From IMG/VR virus record IMGVR_UViG_3300035698_013095, positions 1 to 43,721 of that record: a DNA stretch of 43,721 nucleotides. One strand, given 5' to 3'. Of the stretch, positions 4,904-43,721 are shown piece by piece. This stretch comes from a virus. The notes under the pieces are model-generated. The model had not been told where the DNA came from. It was given only the letters and a program-made list of their open reading frames with translations, and made no database searches. The translations under genes and the position numbers were made by a program. Each line of letters opens with the position of its first letter. Positions within the stretch are counted from its first letter, which is position 1.

Positions 4904-7209
4904 TTTTCCCCCGCGTCTAATGTTAAGTTGGCTGCGTTAACAGTACAAGGATAAGGTTGATCCTGTAAAATAATCAACTCTTTTCTCTCTTCCCATTTGT
5001 CTTCATAGAAATTTGATTTTACTCCGGTAAAAGGAAGAGGGGGTCGATCCGTTGCTTGACCCGACACCGAAGAAGTAATTTGATCTAACTCATATAAATT
5101 GGTCCCGTATTTAGATCCAATACTGTGAGAAAATATTAAATCTACATCAGAAACATTTTTTTGACTTGTTAGAATATTTTCTTCGTCGGACCCTAATACT
5201 AGGTCCATAGAAACAAAAATACCAATATAATTATATCCTAGATGAACAATGCCCGCTTGTCTGTTTAACGTTATAGTTCCATTGCTAACTGTTACATCTG
5301 GATGGGTACGCCCGTCTGTAATAACTTGAATAGTCTCCCCTTCTAAATGATGAAGTCCTGTTATGGTATCGGCTGTTAAATACCAATCTCCCGCAGCAAT
5401 AGCATCCGTATTATCAAAATCACTTTCAACCGTACATACAACAACAGTAGGGCTCGTATATGCAGTAATTAATGCGACGCCTCCCCCTACACGATCTTGG
5501 TATTTTTTAAAAATCTTTTTACCAACGTCCCCGGCGACAAAGGATCCCCCTCCGGACATAGTAAAATTAATCCCTGTACCCGTCGTAGCTGAAGGGGTCA
5601 TTGTAGGATCTGAAGTAATAACAGATCCATCAAAAGTTAAAAAGCTATCAAGATAAGTTAAATCTTTCTGCGCTTCGTATACCTCATTTTCATAGGCTGC
5701 GGTATCTGCATCTTCATCATCAGTATAATAATCTGTTTTAGATACCCCCTCAAATGGTTCTGTAAAATATTCTAAATAACATACAGCGGTACCATTAATA
5801 GTTCGTTCAACGGCAATCCACACCCTGTCATACCCGTCTTCTAAAGGTTCGATAGCAACACTCGTTATATTTACATCAGCGCCCCCGATTTTATGTTGAT
5901 GCCAACCAGAAACATCCTCTTTTGATTTTAATGTTATTCCGACAAGCACTCCATCATTCCTAACCATCCATAAAATATCAGATCGTCCGCGCTGAAATGC
6001 AATTTGTTTAATTCCCGAGACTGTTAAATGAGACGATACAAATGCTCTATTAACTGATTTATAAGAATCTGCTAATAATTCATATTCAAAACTACGAATG
6101 ATCCGCCCGCCTTTTTGAACATAATAAAGCGTGTTACCATTTGCTACCGGTCTAACTGCCTGAGCCCCGTAAGGGTCAAGAGGACGTTTTCGAATATTAG
6201 TCGGGGTAATAGCATCATTAGTACCCCCTCCATCAATTCCAATAATACCTCCGGTTGTCCCGACGGATATAAAATCTGGAAGTCCTACAATCCAATTTAT
6301 ATAAACAACATCCCCTTGATCTGAAGTAATAGGAAATACGATAGCGTGATCTGCATCAGCCCCGGTCGTATAATCATCATAGCGAGACGCTCCCGCGTCC
6401 GTCGGAGATCGACTTAACCACATAGAATCGGGATTATTATGGGTACTTGAGAAAACAGATCGGCCTTGATAAAAACCAACACCACCGGGATAATCATTCG
6501 CCCCACCGAAAGGATCCGCAGTACGGACATATACAGCAAAGGTCCATGACGTCGCGCTTACACGTGTTAATTTATATGGCGGAAAAGTACGCTGCGCGGT
6601 ATACATAACATTACCTTGTTGTGCAAGTTCAAATTCAAATAATTCAGTATCAGTATAGGGTGAAGTTAATTCATACACTATAGTAGAAGTCCCATCAGAA
6701 ACGTACGCAGTAAATCCAGTACCATCTACATCATCATCAAAAAGATCAGTCAGTTCATAATCATTGGCCCCGGCGTTAGCAACACGAAAATATCGACCAT
6801 TAAGTTCTGTCATACCGACGACACCTTCAATATAGATCTCGTGGCCGTTAGAATAAGGGTGTCCCACGTCGGTAACAACAACAGGACTTGCTTGAGTAGC
6901 TCCTGTAATAACAGTTGCAGTAGGATCAAGAGTTAAAGCCGCGTCTTCATGGATTCTAATTTTAGCATTAGTAAATTCTAAAATATATACTTGTTCGTCG
7001 TTGTACCGAAAACGTTCTATTCGAGCTTCATAATTATGACGAGAATTATGACTAAACATCGTACCGCCGCGGTATACCATAGGTCCTTGTTGTCGAGCAA
7101 TAAAATTCTGCATCCGTTTCCCGGAACCAAAATATAATTCGGAATCTGTTCGACCATAAAGATCAGAAGAAACCTCACCACCTGAAAATTTTGTTAATAG
7201 CTGTTGCAT
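4900..7209 (-). CDS. Tail nozzle protein (tail tubular protein B / gp12-like)
   Basis: 769 residues. The N-terminus LTKFSGGEVSSDLYGRTDSE followed by MQNFIARQQGPMVYRGGTMF is characteristic of the short-tailed phage nozzle family (xFsgGEvSp.LyGR.Dl..y..g...l.NfiV...G...rrpGt.fv). The rest is beta-rich, in keeping with the beta-propeller and platform domains of nozzles. It forms the distal tube of the stubby tail and holds fibres. It lies directly after the adaptor gene, as in T7 and BPP-1-like phages. The start is 3 bases after the adaptor stop region. Confidence 0.85.
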   Translation of the reverse strand: MQQLLTKFSGGEVSSDLYGRTDSELYFGSGKRMQNFIARQQGPMVYRGGTMFSHNSRHNYEARIERFRYNDEQVYILEFTNAKIRIHEDAALTLDPTATVITGATQASPVVVTDVGHPYSNGHEIYIEGVVGMTELNGRYFRVANAGANDYELTDLFDDDVDGTGFTAYVSDGTSTIVYELTSPYTDTELFEFELAQQGNVMYTAQRTFPPYKLTRVSATSWTFAVYVRTADPFGGANDYPGGVGFYQGRSVFSSTHNNPDSMWLSRSPTDAGASRYDDYTTGADADHAIVFPITSDQGDVVYINWIVGLPDFISVGTTGGIIGIDGGGTNDAITPTNIRKRPLDPYGAQAVRPVANGNTLYYVQKGGRIIRSFEYELLADSYKSVNRAFVSSHLTVSGIKQIAFQRGRSDILWMVRNDGVLVGITLKSKEDVSGWHQHKIGGADVNITSVAIEPLEDGYDRVWIAVERTINGTAVCYLEYFTEPFEGVSKTDYYTDDEDADTAAYENEVYEAQKDLTYLDSFLTFDGSVITSDPTMTPSATTGTGINFTMSGGGSFVAGDVGKKIFKKYQDRVGGGVALITAYTSPTVVVCTVESDFDNTDAIAAGDWYLTADTITGLHHLEGETIQVITDGRTHPDVTVSNGTITLNRQAGIVHLGYNYIGIFVSMDLVLGSDEENILTSQKNVSDVDLIFSHSIGSKYGTNLYELDQITSSVSGQATDRPPLPFTGVKSNFYEDKWEERKELIILQDQPYPCTVNAANLTLDAGEK

Positions 7210-9541: not shown

Positions 9542-10486
9542 TTATTTTTTTGTTGCGCTCGCACCTTTTTGTATTTCGGCTATTTGAGAGTATAGGTCTT
9601 TAACTTTTTGTTGTGCTACATCATATCCCGGATCACGAAAATCTTTATACGCGGGAGTTTTCATAAGTTGCATAGCTTCTTCTCGTAAAGCGACGGGATC
9701 TCCGGTTGCTGGTCTATTACTCGGTCCTATACCATCTTCGCTAATATACTTCTTGTGAACCGCATTAAGAGTTGTAGTTAACAATAACAAGGAACGGTTA
9801 TCAAGGTTCTCAAGCTCAGGTTTAAGATCATCTGGAATATTCTCTCTCATAAGATTCTTAGCTATACCCAATGCCGTTTCTCGACTATCTTTGTATATTT
9901 CAGAAATCTTAGTATCAAACTCTGTGTCTTTAGCCTCTTCAGTCGCTTTAATATCTCCCGCTATTTTATCATACCCTTCTGTGATCTTATTAACTTGGTG
10001 TTGGCTAACTCCCGCATCATGAAATACTTGCTTCATGCCTGTTTGAAAACCTTCATCCCGACCGTTTGCCTTAGAAAACTCAGTTTCCGGAAAGGCATAT
10101 TCACTCATGTCTTTGGGGCGTAAGGAGTTATAAAAAGCAGTAATCTGTTCCGGGGTAGCCTCTGCTCCCGGGACCCCAACATCCGGCCTTTGACCTAACT
10201 TTGATTGAAGATTAACGTGTTGGTCAATAAGCTTTTCAAACGTGATATCCTTAAAATATTCCTTATTTCTGTGTTCCGGGGGTAATGCGGTAGCCATATC
10301 AAGCTCAGGAGCTTTATATGCTGGTGGGTCTCCTCCCGGGGGAGTATTGTTAACATCAATTTTAACCTCTGGTGGATCTCCGGCTGGTGGATCTCCGGCT
10401 GGTGGATCTCCGGCTGGTGGATCACCAACAAGGCCACGATTGTTAAAAGGGAATTTAGCCCACTCATTGTTCCAAAACTTTTTCAT
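9542..10486 (-). CDS. Capsid scaffolding protein
   Basis: 314 residues placed between portal/Bbp19-like genes and the major capsid gene. The N-terminus has a low-complexity linker of four GDPPA units (about residues 21-40). Next comes a YFKDITFEKLIDQHVNLQSK segment typical of phage scaffold N-regions, then charged helices throughout (ITEGYDKIAGDIKATEEAKD), and a Lys-rich C-terminus (IQKGASATKK), the usual capsid-binding end of scaffolds. It directs capsid assembly and leaves the prohead. A protease is not seen nearby. Confidence 0.75.
   Translation of the reverse strand: MKKFWNNEWAKFPFNNRGLVGDPPAGDPPAGDPPAGDPPEVKIDVNNTPPGGDPPAYKAPELDMATALPPEHRNKEYFKDITFEKLIDQHVNLQSKLGQRPDVGVPGAEATPEQITAFYNSLRPKDMSEYAFPETEFSKANGRDEGFQTGMKQVFHDAGVSQHQVNKITEGYDKIAGDIKATEEAKDTEFDTKISEIYKDSRETALGIAKNLMRENIPDDLKPELENLDNRSLLLLTTTLNAVHKKYISEDGIGPSNRPATGDPVALREEAMQLMKTPAYKDFRDPGYDVAQQKVKDLYSQIAEIQKGASATKK
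10371..10427 (-). repeat. 15-base tandem repeat (about 3.8 copies) in the scaffold gene
   Basis: The unit GGTGGATCTCCGGCT begins at 10371, 10386, 10401 and 10416, the last copy diverging after nine bases. On the coding strand it encodes GDPPA repeats, keeping frame. Copy number is likely to vary by slippage. Confidence 0.9.
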
Positions 10487-30586: not shown

Positions 30587-31031
30587 CCCCGGAATCTCCG
30601 GAGGCATAGCATTACTCGGGCGTAAAAATGGTACTGCATGGTTACAAACAAAAGTTAAACATATGACCCCTCACGATATAGCATTGACGCTCGATGAAAT
30701 AAAGCATCGAATTACAAAATGCTACATCGAACGCGTTCACTCTATGCCAAAACAGGGAGTAAGGTCAACGTTTACTTTTGGTCAAAATTTTGGAATGTAT
30801 GTAGGGATCCTCACAGCTTTAAAAATCCCTTTTGCTTATGTTTCCCCGGGAACGTGGCAACGCGTCATGGGGTGCCTCTCTAAAGGTGATAAAAACGTAA
30901 CCAAAAAGAAAGCTCAAGAATTATTTCCTCAACTTACAATCACTCATGCTGTCGCTGACGCTCTTTTAATTGCTGAATATGGCCGGAGAAAAGAAGCGAT
31001 CTATAATCCTGACAGCGTGGAGGACCTATGA
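30570..31031 (+). CDS. RuvC-like Holliday-junction resolvase
   Basis: 153 residues with the RNase H-fold resolvase motifs: MILGIDPGISGGIALLG (first Asp), CYIERVHSMPKQG (Glu), SMP..G....F.FG..fG...G pattern, YVSPGTWQRVMG and HAVADALLIAEYG (C-terminal Asp). It resolves recombination or branched replication intermediates before packaging. CAGGAGG is upstream of the ATG. Its stop overlaps the next start (ATGA). Confidence 0.88.
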   Translation: MILGIDPGISGGIALLGRKNGTAWLQTKVKHMTPHDIALTLDEIKHRITKCYIERVHSMPKQGVRSTFTFGQNFGMYVGILTALKIPFAYVSPGTWQRVMGCLSKGDKNVTKKKAQELFPQLTITHAVADALLIAEYGRRKEAIYNPDSVEDL

Positions 31032-32116
31032 AAAAAACCCTATCCTATACCATCCCCTTGATCGCTGGATTTTTTGCCTGTGTGCCTTTTATTTATTTTA
31101 AACTCACACCCCCTTTATCTTGGTGGCCGCTAATAATAACGTGCGCCGGATGCGCCGGGATGTATCTTCTTTTTATGGAAATAAATCCGATCATTAAAGG
31201 GGTATCACTATTAAGTTTTATCAGTTGTTTTTTCAGTAACGTACCCTACCTATCATTTAATGCGTATGTAGCGATCGTCTTCTGTTGTTATTTTTATATT
31301 GGCGCGATTAAGATGAAATCGTGGGGCCCTACATTTAGGATGTTAAAAGCTGTTTTGGTTCTTAACCTTCTCTTAATAGCGGCTCAATTCTTTTCTCATG
31401 ATCAACTTTTAAATTTTGGTCTTACTGAGATAACACAATTCGGAGTAGTGGGACACCATATGCAAGAGGCGAGTTTTATTGTGATCGTATCTGCATTTCT
31501 TATTCAATTACATCCGGGATTTTTAATCATTCCTGTTTTTGTTGCGCTGTTTTGCAATTCTACATGGTCCGTATTATGTATTGCGATAGGGACGTGGATT
31601 TATTTCCCTTCAAAAGTGTGGCGGAGAATAGCTTTTTTAATTTTCATAGGGTTCGTTGTTATGGGGGTGATAACACATAAGTTTGAGGCTAATTGGTCTG
31701 TACAACACTATCATGGCCGAATGAGTATTTGGAAAAGGACGATTGAACTCACCAACGAAAGAGCTTTACCGGGCTGGGGTTTAGGAACGTATAAAGTTAT
31801 ATTCCCTATTAAAAGTGGACTTCCAGATACGCCGGTAAAAACCGCACATAATGATTGGCTTCAAATGCTTTTCGAAATTGGATATCCTTTGTTTATTCTT
31901 TTTGTCGGGGTAAACATAACGACATTTCTGCGATTGTTAAATCAGTATAGGGAAGATAAAATAAAATACTCTCGGGTCTTAGCGGGGTACTCAATTATTG
32001 TAGTTGATATGATGGTCCATTTTCCTATGCGAATGATTCAAACTGTCTTACTCATGCTCCTTTTCCTCGCCTATTGTGAAATGATTGTTCGACGTAGAAC
32101 AATTCATTTAGAATAA
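31028..32116 (+). CDS. O-antigen ligase/polymerase (Wzy/WaaL)-like membrane protein
   Basis: 362 residues, with about nine or ten hydrophobic segments from the N-terminus (YTIPLIAGFFACVPFIYFKL) to LLMLLFLAYCEMIV. The large loop near residues 225-285 holds RMSIWKRTIELTNERALPGW, GLGTYKVIFP and AHNDWLQMLFEIGYPLFILF, which is the Wzy_C pattern (R...W......i...p..G.G.g......HN..L....e.G). Such proteins join or polymerise undecaprenyl-linked glycans at the periplasmic face. In a phage it would alter host surface polysaccharide (serotype conversion or superinfection exclusion). Last gene of the plus arm, coupled to the resolvase. Confidence 0.75.
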   Translation: MKKTLSYTIPLIAGFFACVPFIYFKLTPPLSWWPLIITCAGCAGMYLLFMEINPIIKGVSLLSFISCFFSNVPYLSFNAYVAIVFCCYFYIGAIKMKSWGPTFRMLKAVLVLNLLLIAAQFFSHDQLLNFGLTEITQFGVVGHHMQEASFIVIVSAFLIQLHPGFLIIPVFVALFCNSTWSVLCIAIGTWIYFPSKVWRRIAFLIFIGFVVMGVITHKFEANWSVQHYHGRMSIWKRTIELTNERALPGWGLGTYKVIFPIKSGLPDTPVKTAHNDWLQMLFEIGYPLFILFVGVNITTFLRLLNQYREDKIKYSRVLAGYSIIVVDMMVHFPMRMIQTVLLMLLFLAYCEMIVRRRTIHLE

Positions 32117-32748: not shown

Positions 32749-32964
32749 TCATTTCTCATTTTTCATGCAGCCCCCCTTTGTTTTAGGTTTCCACGGGATC
32801 CAGATATCTACTATGGATATAAAGTCTGCTTTTGCGGCATCAATGTTTCCGACCTTAGTCTTTATATCGCTTGACTTCCCGTATATCTTTTTCTCATTAT
32901 GGTAATGCGTCACGCAACCAGATAAACATATAATGATTAGGATTAAACTAAATTTCCGTATCAC
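32749..32964 (-). CDS. Small outer-membrane-type lipoprotein
   Basis: 71 residues. MIRKFSLILIIICLSGCVTH has a lipobox LSGC with Cys17. The mature part YGKSSDIKTKVGNIDAAKAD then IVDIWIPWKPKTKGGCMKNE is short. A lipobox implies a Gram-negative host with lipoprotein sorting. Next to a membrane-anchored coiled-coil protein (33694-34068) it could be an o-spanin-like partner, or a superinfection-exclusion lipoprotein. Confidence 0.7.
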   Translation of the reverse strand: MIRKFSLILIIICLSGCVTHYHNEKKIYGKSSDIKTKVGNIDAAKADFISIVDIWIPWKPKTKGGCMKNEK

Positions 32965-33505
32965 TATCCCACCTCCCGTAAAGTATGTTATGCTCTTTGT
33001 TATCTTTCATGTATTGGTTAAGATCTTCCGGGGATCCGTGCGTTGGTAGATTCTTAATAAACTTTCTTAATTTCTTAGGAAGATCATAAGGGAGCAAGGC
33101 TCTTAGATGATAGGGTACGTCCTCGCTACAATATTCTAATCCGGGAATGTTCATTCGTCTTAACCCGATAGCTTGACCCACAATTCCGACCCAATCATAA
33201 AGAGTTGTATACCATGGTTGTTTTAATTTAACTTCAACAGAGTGAATAAGGATTTTTTTAAGGTGATTTGACAATCCATTAATTGATATAAATTTAAGAC
33301 GATTACCTTTTTTCATATATTTAGAAACTTTAATTCTGGAATACTTATTTCCTTGGGAAGCAAACACGCCGTCTTTATGCATCCACATAACATGATTATA
33401 AAAACCTTTTGTTCGAATTTTTATAATTGTTTGAATTAAACCGCTCGTATGATCGGAAAATACAATCAGAGGAAGATCTTTTTTTGGTATTTTATGAGGA
33501 TCCAT
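32948..33505 (-). CDS. Papain-like (permuted NlpC/P60, YiiX-type) cysteine peptidase/amidase
   Basis: 185 residues. The likely catalytic His lies in IRTKGFYNHVMWMHKDGVFA (about residue 38) and the likely Cys in NIPGLEYCSEDVPYHL (about 127), giving the permuted order His before Cys with the YCSE motif of YiiX-type proteins. No signal peptide. It could cut peptide or ester bonds in the wall or act on lipid-linked substrates. In the cassette with a membrane coiled-coil protein and a lipoprotein it is a candidate endolysin. Overlaps both neighbours. Confidence 0.65.
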   Translation of the reverse strand: MDPHKIPKKDLPLIVFSDHTSGLIQTIIKIRTKGFYNHVMWMHKDGVFASQGNKYSRIKVSKYMKKGNRLKFISINGLSNHLKKILIHSVEVKLKQPWYTTLYDWVGIVGQAIGLRRMNIPGLEYCSEDVPYHLRALLPYDLPKKLRKFIKNLPTHGSPEDLNQYMKDNKEHNILYGRWDSDTEI

Positions 33506-38522: not shown

Positions 38523-38930
38523 TTAAAGATGGCGAGAACTAACTAACCGTAAACGAGTTACCGTTATCGTAGCATCATTTCCCGCGCCCATATTAAATTT
38601 AATCCTAGCGTTGATTGCGGGTGTTGGGCCGAAAGGAATAATAAAAACCTTTTGATCATTTAACACCGCAATTTCCGGCTCACCGTCCGGTACAACATAA
38701 TTTGCATTAGTTAAGTTTTGCTCTGCATCTGTTAGATCTTCATTACTGTGTTCAACATCCACGCCAACATTTGCAGTATTAGATCCTTCCACCTTTACCT
38801 CAAGTCCGAAACTTACATTTTTTTGGAGAGGGAAAGATTGCGACCATTTATTTCCAGTTACGGCCGGAAGGGTTATTTCTGTAACTCCCTGTAATGCTAA
38901 TAAATCAATGTATTTATTTTCCTTAGTCAT
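38523..38930 (-). CDS. Beta-rich structural-type protein without signal peptide (135 aa)
   Basis: Starts MTKENKYIDLLALQGVTEIT, then strands FGLEVKVEGSNTANVGVDVE and ATITVTRLRLVSSRHL. It is related in style to the adjacent secreted protein 38984-39442 (both look like single beta-sandwich domains) but lacks its signal sequence. Perhaps a fibre accessory or cap protein. No family recognised. GGGGGAATTTAAT precedes the ATG. Confidence 0.6.
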   Translation of the reverse strand: MTKENKYIDLLALQGVTEITLPAVTGNKWSQSFPLQKNVSFGLEVKVEGSNTANVGVDVEHSNEDLTDAEQNLTNANYVVPDGEPEIAVLNDQKVFIIPFGPTPAINARIKFNMGAGNDATITVTRLRLVSSRHL

Positions 38931-38983: not shown

Positions 38984-39442
38984 TTATCTATCCCTTTGAT
39001 AAATCATACTGGCTGTTATTTGAGAATTTGCATCGGGATCAAATTTATATCTTAAATACGGCGCTACTCTAGCAGTGTGAACAATCCATCGAGAAACATT
39101 TTGTAAAGCTGTTACGAGGTTTCCTTTAGCTGTGAGCGCACCTACCATATCACTCGTGTATGCTGTATACCAAGTAGTTCCGTCAATAGAATATTCTGCG
39201 GATATATCAACATCACCCCCGCCCCCGGCTATATCCTCTGTTATTACAAGGGTGGTAAAACCTACATTATCTTTTATTGAAAGAGTTTCACTGTAAACCG
39301 CGGCCCCGCTTGTTAATGCATAACTAGAAATAGCAGTTCCGGCGGCGTCTTTCAAACTTCGAGTTCGAGCGTCAACTTTTGCAAACGCTTGAGCCGAAAT
39401 TAAAAGACAACAAATACACATTAAACTAATTAATTTTTTTAT
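38984..39442 (-). CDS. Secreted small beta-sandwich protein (152 aa) with an ATA/ATT start
   Basis: The only in-frame ATG (39421) is 28 bases from the ribosome site AAGGAG and would cut the signal peptide. Reading from ATA 39442 (or ATT 39445), six to nine bases from AAGGAG, gives KKLISLMCICCLLISAQAFA, a complete Sec signal. ATA overlaps the TAA of the upstream gene (ATAA), like normal ATGA coupling. The mature part has VDISAEYSIDGTTWYTAYTS and LRYKFDPDANSQITASMIYQ, as in small phage structural beta proteins. The rare start is inferred. Confidence 0.65.
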   Translation of the reverse strand: MKKLISLMCICCLLISAQAFAKVDARTRSLKDAAGTAISSYALTSGAAVYSETLSIKDNVGFTTLVITEDIAGGGGDVDISAEYSIDGTTWYTAYTSDMVGALTAKGNLVTALQNVSRWIVHTARVAPYLRYKFDPDANSQITASMIYQRDR

Positions 39443-40152
39443 AATTCGTCTCCTTCTGATTTTGCAATTTCATTTATTTTATTTAACTTCTCTTCAATTT
39501 GTAATTCCCTCAAAGCAATGTCATTTTCTTTTGCAACAACCTCTTTACGAAGTTGTTTAAAAGTTTCAACCCGTTGGTCGTATCTATTATTTAATCCAAT
39601 AAGTGCGTCTTTTGTTTGCTGAAGCATTTCTAATTCCCGGTTAATCTTAATTGAGAGGTCCTCAAACTGCGTAATAAGTACCCTTTGATTTTTAACTTCA
39701 GCAACAGCCCTCTCTTCTGAAATTCTTGATTGAGCAATTAAAGTAACAGCGTCTTTTTTCTCAACTTCCATCTTCCTAAGATCATATGCAATCTCTGTTT
39801 CAGCCGCTTTAATCTGCTCAAATATTTTATTATTTTCCCGAATTAATCTAAGCTCTTCCTGTATCTTATCACATAGGGTTTCCTTCCTTCCCTTAATATA
39901 CTCATTAGTTTCGTTCCGTTTAACATTTAATTCATCCTCTTGACTTTGCACCCAAGAAGAAAAGTTTTGTTTTTTGGCTGCAATCTCTTCTATGACACTA
40001 GCTTTCTCTTCTAACGCTTTTACGATATCAGCTTTAATCACAACAAGTTGACTTTGATAGTCTTTAAGCCCTTGATCCCGTATCTTTTTAATGCGTTCCG
40101 GAGTTAAGGGTTCATCTTTTTTATAGTTAACTCGGATTCTTTTATTATACAT
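39439..40152 (-). CDS. Long coiled-coil protein (237 aa)
   Basis: Almost entirely charged helix (ALEEKASVIEEIAAKKQNFS, EEKLNKINEIAKSEGDEL), with heptads from about residue 25 to 230. No signal peptide or membrane segment. It may be a chaperone, a structural shaft or a scaffold for the fibres encoded around it. Ends GDEL with TAA overlapping the rare start of the next gene. Confidence 0.65.
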   Translation of the reverse strand: MYNKRIRVNYKKDEPLTPERIKKIRDQGLKDYQSQLVVIKADIVKALEEKASVIEEIAAKKQNFSSWVQSQEDELNVKRNETNEYIKGRKETLCDKIQEELRLIRENNKIFEQIKAAETEIAYDLRKMEVEKKDAVTLIAQSRISEERAVAEVKNQRVLITQFEDLSIKINRELEMLQQTKDALIGLNNRYDQRVETFKQLRKEVVAKENDIALRELQIEEKLNKINEIAKSEGDEL

Positions 40153-41841: not shown

Positions 41842-43721
41842 TTATCTCCTTCGAGTACGCCGTTTACCTTTTTTAGCCGGCGCGCTTGGTTTTAACGCCC
41901 ATTCACTCATAAATAATCGACGATAATCGTTGGTTTCGTCATTGTATAAATCAAGTATTCCATCTAATGTATCAGCATACTGTGTAGGGATTTTTCCTGT
42001 TAATATACCTACTGCCTTAACCCCATGTCTTAATTTCTTTTGAGGGCTCTTAGATTTTACCGCACGGCCCGCTTCCACAAATCCACTTAACGCCGGGGGT
42101 GCCCCAAAATCAAATCCTTTAACTAACGTATTCATTATATCCCGGACCAAAAGAATCCCCGCAACAGGGTAAAGAGCTAATTCTTTTAAATGTTTTTTCC
42201 AGTCGTCAATATCCCCTCCCGATCGAATAACACTACTTAACGTCGCCGGGGCTACCCAAAGCCAAAATAACGCACGCGCATAACTGCCAGTCTTTCTTAG
42301 GGGGTGTGCTTTACTGTATTTTAATTGATCCATAGCAGATACTAAAAGATTATGAGTGTTCCCAAAATGAGACATAAACATAGTCCACATTTTTTGCCAT
42401 TGATCACCTTTCATTACTTCCGCTAAATTTTCTATTGATCCTGTAGGCTGTGTTGTTCGAACTATATGATCCGCGTGCTGAACAGCAAGCGCCTCGTCAT
42501 TATTATTTTCATCAAGACCTTGCTGATATGCTCCTAACCACGACGGCATTGTTGTAATCTGATCAATACCAACTATCCAACTAAACATAACTTCATTCCA
42601 ATCTTTTCCTGTTTTAGTAAGATGGGAAACCCGTTTGGATTTTAAAAAATCTTTTAGCTCCCGATCAAAAGTATTACGTCGATTCTTCATAATGGCCGAA
42701 CGAGAATACACAAACTCAAAAGCCGCTTTCTTATCCTTATGAAAATCTTTTAAACCAATCGCTGCATATTTTGTTCCAATTTTATATATCGTTTGAAAAT
42801 ATGATCCTCCCTTTAATAAAGAAACTGTTACCCTATGCGCCAAAAGAGACGCCGTACTATTATGTCGTAATCCCTGAGCCATTTTCTGTACGATGTTTCC
42901 CGCGCGTATACCCGACGGGTTAGCGACGGATCTAAGCCATGTTGGGAATTGGTTATAAATGTTCTCACCCATCGTATCGTTAACTGCTTTTTGGAATAGG
43001 GGATGCTTAATAAGTTTTTGAACATCCCGAACTTCCGCGGATAAAGATGTATAGTGAATAACCCCATCTACGTGATTTAAAAGAATTTCAAAGACGTTTA
43101 AATTAACCGGCGTAGTACCTCCTACGCGACGATAAGAAAAACTCCTATTCATGTAAGTTGTTTTGAAAACCTGTTGAAATAGATCCTCCGTCGCTTGCCT
43201 TACTTGAGCTTGTTTACTTGTCTTGAAGTCCTCTATAATAGGGAAGTAGCGTCCCTCTACTTTAGGGGGTCGTACTCCGTAAAGTTTTTCTGTGGCCGCA
43301 ACCACTTCTGGAAATAAAGAATCTAAAAGCTCATGGACCTCATTAACAAACGCTTTCGAATTAGGATCTGCATCTACCTTGTCAACAATAATTTGAATTT
43401 CTTCCGCGGAAAACTCGTTACCTTCCAACAAACGTTGAAGGTTTCCTGTGTTACCGCTGTTTAAAGCAACGCCGAGCATTTGCTCCCACGTCAACTCCAC
43501 CTCCACCCCTTCAATTTTTTGAGGTTTATGCATCACATCTGATAAATTAGTTTCAAACCTTTGAAAACTTTTTTGAAGTTTTGCATATGCAATTTCAGAA
43601 AGCGTTAACTCTTTATTAATTCCTTTTTGAATTTTTTCAAAAACTTCTTGTGCTACCCCGAGAGTATGAGAAATGAATTCTACTTTTCGATGAATAGCGA
43701 AAAAGGCACTTATCTTATCAA
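41842..43721 (-). CDS. C-terminal part of the giant gp16-like ejection/polyvalent protein
   Basis: Open frame from the right edge to TAA 41842. Through the overlap 18-33/43706-43721 it continues the frame of 1-1489 in phase (LIFDKISAFFAIHRKVEFIS at the join). A GTG at 43536 is inside the frame and is not needed as a start. Recognisable style: LPD38-like/ polyvalent protein region RHNSTASLLAHRVTVSLLKG, WNEVMFSWIVGIDQITTMPS, MWTMFMSHFGNTHNLL, ALFWLWVAPATLSSVI, then a very basic end (PAPAKKGKRRTRRR-type). Together with 34-2368 it makes 1404 codons including one amber. Confidence 0.75.
   Translation of the reverse strand, partial: DKISAFFAIHRKVEFISHTLGVAQEVFEKIQKGINKELTLSEIAYAKLQKSFQRFETNLSDVMHKPQKIEGVEVELTWEQMLGVALNSGNTGNLQRLLEGNEFSAEEIQIIVDKVDADPNSKAFVNEVHELLDSLFPEVVAATEKLYGVRPPKVEGRYFPIIEDFKTSKQAQVRQATEDLFQQVFKTTYMNRSFSYRRVGGTTPVNLNVFEILLNHVDGVIHYTSLSAEVRDVQKLIKHPLFQKAVNDTMGENIYNQFPTWLRSVANPSGIRAGNIVQKMAQGLRHNSTASLLAHRVTVSLLKGGSYFQTIYKIGTKYAAIGLKDFHKDKKAAFEFVYSRSAIMKNRRNTFDRELKDFLKSKRVSHLTKTGKDWNEVMFSWIVGIDQITTMPSWLGAYQQGLDENNNDEALAVQHADHIVRTTQPTGSIENLAEVMKGDQWQKMWTMFMSHFGNTHNLLVSAMDQLKYSKAHPLRKTGSYARALFWLWVAPATLSSVIRSGGDIDDWKKHLKELALYPVAGILLVRDIMNTLVKGFDFGAPPALSGFVEAGRAVKSKSPQKKLRHGVKAVGILTGKIPTQYADTLDGILDLYNDETNDYRRLFMSEWALKPSAPAKKGKRRTRRR

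Follow-up and report, generated by a model that had tools for sequence, protein, structure and literature searches.

The stretch of DNA analysed here (the window) is the single virus record IMGVR_UViG_3300035698_013095 with a length of 43,721 bases. Its genes for a major head protein, the large subunit of terminase and tail proteins mark it as a phage; the closest head protein in the 'phages' collection has 50% identity. The curated gene list of the window comprises 49 genes, 42 of which start with ATG, five with GTG, one with TTG and one with ATA. During curation by hand, a more plausible start downstream of the first possible one was chosen for 11 genes, and the start of the gene at 38984-39442 was shifted upstream to ATA; the list excludes the initial 1.5 kb of the window as well as the gene at 41842-43536. 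All 48 remaining genes have a standard start and are free of internal stops. The gene with the proposed ATA start and its surroundings contain the following features; L002, L071, L074 and L077 are related records introduced below.

38984..39442, minus strand: reading frame of 152 amino acids from ATA to TAA, intact; exported phage protein, predicted to contain a beta-sandwich
39440..39442, minus strand: proposed start ATA, aligned with the ATG of relatives (L002 without gaps; L071, L074 and L077 from query residue 1)
39450..39455, minus strand: Shine-Dalgarno (SD) site AAGGAG, 7 nt before ATA
39439..39442, minus strand: ATAA, in which the proposed start shares bases with the TAA that ends the upstream gene
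39443..39445, minus strand: ATT, alternative start, disfavoured by a spacing of 4 nt and by the lack of a counterpart in L002, L071, L074 and L077
39419..39421, minus strand: ATG, first standard start, without an SD site in range and without a positive n-region; corresponds to the internal Met 8 of L077
39380..39442, minus strand: Sec-type signal peptide IKKLISLMCICCLLISAQAFA with the A-X-A-like end AFA; cleavage site assigned by eye
39439..40152, minus strand: upstream gene of 237 amino acids, coiled-coil-like by eye, whose 3' end contains the SD site of the next gene
38523..38930, minus strand: downstream gene of 135 amino acids, matching phrog_28213

The open frame extends from 39469 to 38984 on the minus strand, and no in-frame ATG, GTG or TTG occurs between the preceding stop and the ATG at 39421. 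From the SD site to this first ATG the minus strand reads AAGGAG ACGAATT ATA AAA AAA TTA ATT AGT TTA ATG. The spacing from AAGGAG is thus 4 nt to the ATT at 39445, 7 nt to the ATA at 39442 and 28 nt to the ATG at 39421. The first-pass annotation had regarded the SD site as correctly spaced for either ATA or ATT; this holds for ATA, whereas ATT is disfavoured. Its further observations that the nearest ATG is 28 nt away and that ATA overlaps the upstream stop as ATAA were confirmed: the TAA of the gene 40152..39439 lies within 39442-39439. With 14 copies of AAGGAG on the minus strand, the chance of finding one of them 5-9 nt before a given codon is p ~0.0016, so that its position here exceeds coincidence. 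For 17 of the 27 copies in the window a standard start follows within 4-12 nt, the nearest such start lying at 5-11 nt and never at 4 nt. Among the 10 other copies, the one at 39455-39450 alone directly precedes a gene start and eight are located inside or opposite listed genes; the tenth (750) is found near the contig end. The leader AAGGAGACGAATTATAA is nearly identical to AAGGAGATAAATTATGA at 41851, which belongs to a tail gene of the same phage (start 41838). Such a context would suit a mutated ATG. Against translation from the ATA stands the lowest-energy fold of the RNA, which engages the larger part of the SD site in pairing with positions beyond the start, although this fold does not surpass those of shuffled sequences (z -0.97).

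The N-terminus encoded from ATA has the properties of a signal peptide, namely a KK n-region, a hydrophobic core (mean hydropathy 2.9 over ten residues) and the AFA end recognised by eye. As the first-pass annotation had stated, a start at ATG 39421 would cost the n-region, including both lysines. The structure model (mean pLDDT 75, pTM 0.69) contains a helix at residues 2-16 and a beta-sandwich after the signal peptide. Structure matches were weak; they consisted of uncharacterised small phage proteins and, among solved structures, varied beta-sandwiches that include a subtilase domain, Eph receptor ligand-binding domains, carbohydrate-binding modules and PirA proteins. Such matches concern the fold, not the function. 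Comparison of the protein with PHROG (E 0.01) and Pfam (E 0.1) gave no match. Its place of action might be the periplasm or the cell surface, with sugars perhaps as ligands, which is a guess.

A first scan with the window protein yielded one relative, L002, which is 53% identical over 150 residues without gaps and whose ATG is opposite the ATA. Thirty records, many of them fragments, were searched: that of L002 itself and 29 found via the head protein. Four of these matched, namely the L002 record, L034 (44% identity) and, weakly, G027 and G028. The latter two matches (27% identity) fit the downstream gene better and were excluded from the start count. Because the downstream protein and the 152-residue protein match the same gene in G027 and G028, the two are probably distant relatives within one family. 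A search of viral contigs with a three-sequence alignment added L071, L072, L074 and L076, two further rows being known records. The same alignment detected L077 on the 44.9-kb contig MVQL01000157.1, which is binned as Pelotomaculum sp.; this bin is possibly a clue to the host or possibly the result of a misbinned phage. L073 is the L002 record and L075 the L034 record; L076 is a separate record, the printed sequence of which is the same as that of L075. Neither tblastn of 'phages' nor a two-sequence alignment run against viral contigs and genome contigs gave a new relative, and with the L002 protein as query only L002 itself was returned. A search of viral_contigs with an exact pattern of 25 bases, in which A or G was accepted, revealed no other copy of the locus, records very near the window being possibly omitted. 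The downstream gene had no new relative in 'phages'. For the upstream gene, no PHROG match at E 0.01 and no relative in one viral scan were found.

In all seven related records, which represent six distinct sequences, the gene starts with ATG, is preceded by an SD-like site (by eye) and encodes a signal-peptide-like N-terminus. The identity of the window protein to the six distinct relatives is 44-58%. Of the 27 residues that are invariant among them, 25 are retained in the window, and one of the departures is the start residue. In alignment A3 the ATA of the window falls into the Met column of the relatives, and for L071, L074 and L077 tblastn placed the ATG at query residue 1. The comparison of L077 (MKKIISIMLIMLLIS) with the window (IKKLISLMCICCLLIS) is especially direct: MKKIISIM is aligned to IKKLISLM, such that the ATA corresponds to the ATG of L077 and the ATG at 39421 to its internal Met 8. 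L034/L076 and L072 differ in length by one and three residues just after the start column, and therefore neither decides between ATA and ATT. Given the 4-nt spacing and the alignments with L002, L071, L074 and L077, ATA 39442 is preferred to ATT 39445 as the start. The alignment of homologues, which the first-pass annotation had recommended as a check, thus placed an ATG at the equivalent N-terminus in each of the seven records. Together with the missing SD site of ATG 39421, this lends good support to its central proposal, a non-AUG start that restores the signal peptide.

ATA is not a conserved start, since it occurs in none of the seven records, all of which have ATG; a conserved non-AUG start is hence rejected. 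Is it a recurrent habit of these phages? A scan of both strands covered the window together with 27 slightly overlapping stretches taken from 14 related records, ~0.47 Mb in all, and sought frames of at least 80 codons that have ATA, ATT or ATC 5-9 nt behind AAGGAG or AGGAGG, at least 15 nt upstream of any standard start. The site at 39442 was the only one returned in this set, which did not include the records of L071, L072, L074, L076 and L077. A phage-wide habit of such starts was accordingly rejected for the window and the 14 records. When the starts of the window genes were compared with these 14 records, matches short of the N-terminus yielding no codon, 111 of 154 rows had a standard start at the aligned position (98 ATG, 12 GTG and 1 TTG). 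The other 43 rows had other codons and were taken as N-terminal misalignment; ATA, ATT or ATC stood in seven of them, and in all seven cases an ATG of the same frame was no more than two codons away. Because all relatives found have ATG, the ATA would be a change private to the window, so far as the records examined show, and not a conserved regulatory start.

These findings are best explained by assuming that the gene starts at ATA 39442-39440, where one G>A change in an ATGA overlap left a weak, and weakly used, AUA start. We assign this reading a probability of about 0.6. It builds on the intact frame, the SD site, the ATAA overlap and the ATG of the relatives; it takes the base to be real and the change to have run from G to A, and it supposes both an ancestral ATGA overlap and the use of AUA. 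A recent ancestor would probably have had its ATG within an ATGA stop/start overlap. Provided that ATA is the start, stop and start have four bases in common at 39439..39442, and the gene list of the window contains seven other junctions of this kind, six with ATGA and one with GTGA, the upstream genes of which therefore end in TGA. The overlap is absent in all six distinct relatives, where 1 to 84 nt separate the end of the upstream frame from the start; for this reason, the ancestral ATGA is deduced from the other junctions of the window. A single transition from ATGA to ATAA would have converted the upstream stop from TGA to TAA and the downstream start from AUG to AUA, so that the upstream stop was kept. 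Ribosomes would still be placed on the AUA by the AAGGAG 7 nt upstream and by the termination of upstream translation within these four bases. Synthesis of the exported protein, with the AUA read as fMet, would then probably continue, although with only part of the yield that an AUG would give.

An ATA start is of a rare but known kind. A study by Hecht in 2017 reportedly dealt with all 64 codons. In E. coli, infC and pcnB have AUU starts, which limit expression as the near-cognate start proposed here would; that of infC is regulatory. The junction resembles ATGA-type coupled pairs in its 4-nt stop/start overlap and differs from them in having ATAA instead of ATGA or GTGA. For Staphylococcus aureus, one report describes AUA starts of infC, ccpN and citZ and an AUU start of cvfC1, which like the window have ATA or ATT in the start position; extended SD sites are predicted there for infC, cvfC1 and ccpN (PMC13009471). 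According to the same report, the activity of reporters with the starts of ccpN and citZ (AUA) and cvfC1 (AUU) in poor medium was ~10% of that with AUG, while rich medium brought the ccpN AUA reporter to as much as 30% (PMC13009471). The starts of ccpN and cvfC1 are described there as conserved, with support from ribosome profiling and reporters, whereas the ATA of the window comes from the sequence of one record. Its nearest parallel is the citZ AUA, which in this account is confined to strains of one lineage (PMC13009471). Re-initiation at a coupled start is stated in another paper to be raised by an SD site and lowered by excess IF3 (PMC2268962). These effects and the reporter yields are consistent with weak translation from the AUA of the window, the use of which is, by analogy, plausible. 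In a further study, on start-codon evolution, 1 of 61,358 ancestral AUG starts changed to AUU and AUA is not mentioned in that text, which suggests that start changes of such type are rarely kept (PMC5622118). Among the papers listed by a full-text search for an AUA start in a phage, the SPP1 genome paper contains AUA once, in a codon table. Absence from print is not claimed.

An unlikely alternative is that the base of the contig is wrong or a minority variant, such that a consensus or damage error shows A where most phage copies have ATG. The ATG in all seven related records speaks for it. A comparison was made with G002, a near-identical record that covers window positions 4302-35663 and ends short of the gene at 38984-39442. 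Over these ~31 kb, there are only eight substitutions, all of them transitions, plus 15 nt at window positions 10369-10383 that are absent from G002; the latter lie in a proline-rich repeat and are in frame by length. So small a number speaks against frequent errors in the contig, as does the intactness of the 48 other listed genes. On the other hand, the window has A/T at seven of the eight sites, as expected of damage or error, and five of the six substitutions in listed genes change an amino acid. The pattern thus has the look of unfiltered mutations or errors; homologues gave no polarity for the differences. Variation between such close phages could also sometimes strike a start codon. Because the other listed genes are intact, we lean toward a real base.

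It is also rather improbable that the A is real and marks a start-loss allele, the protein being no longer made usefully because the gene is dispensable or newly broken. The change is common to no relative found, and the gene is uncommon in related phages, considering that four of 30 records matched, two of them weakly, and that many records are fragments. Against a loss stand the intact frame of 152 codons, the retention of 25 of 27 invariant residues and the intact SD site; a very recent loss would leave the same appearance.

The first-pass annotation had suggested that a rare start would keep expression low or make it depend on coupling or initiation-factor levels. As an evolved function this was unsupported: none of the seven records has ATA and none of the six distinct relatives has the 4-nt overlap. 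As no relative found has AUA, there is no evidence of selection for it; reduced or coupling-dependent expression is a plausible consequence of ATA. That ATAA is a selected form of the ATGA overlap, making synthesis of the exported protein almost wholly dependent on terminating upstream ribosomes and host IF3, is unlikely.

It is very unlikely that ATG 39421 is the true start and that the protein lacks the first seven residues. In its favour, no standard start codon precedes this ATG in the frame, and a hydrophobic stretch follows it (mean hydropathy 2.7 over ten residues). On the other side, no SD site is in range, both lysines are lost, and the starts of the six distinct relatives lie farther upstream, L077 having an internal Met at this place. 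Gene callers that allow only ATG, GTG and TTG would nevertheless choose it and lose the n-region of the signal peptide. A fusion with the upstream gene by frameshift or read-through, suggested by the contact of the frames at ATAA and the following A-run, is hardly credible: it would bury the signal peptide, a slippery heptamer before the stop is absent by eye, and the relatives are free-standing genes behind different upstream genes.

If the base is real, the locus constitutes a natural single-base test of the rescue of AUA by an SD site and a terminating ribosome. The transition from ATGA to ATAA can be searched for in other genomes. The finding leaves general views unchanged.

Several other genes of the region are of note. 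In the window, neighbouring genes of the tail region with starts at 39442, 38501, 37162, 35645 and 32681 on the minus strand encode N-termini that by eye resemble Sec signal peptides. The same applies to starts at 4995, 5455, 7055 and 8385 on the plus strand in the tail region of L002. Such N-termini are unusual for genes adjoining tail fibres. The gene at 31028-32116 on the plus strand encodes a membrane-like protein with a match to the O-antigen ligase family Wzy_C above the Pfam cut-off; by this similarity, it may alter the host surface. A short lipoprotein-like product (LSGC) is encoded at 32749-32964 on the minus strand, overlapping 32948-33505. It is possibly an outer spanin, which would indicate a host with two membranes.
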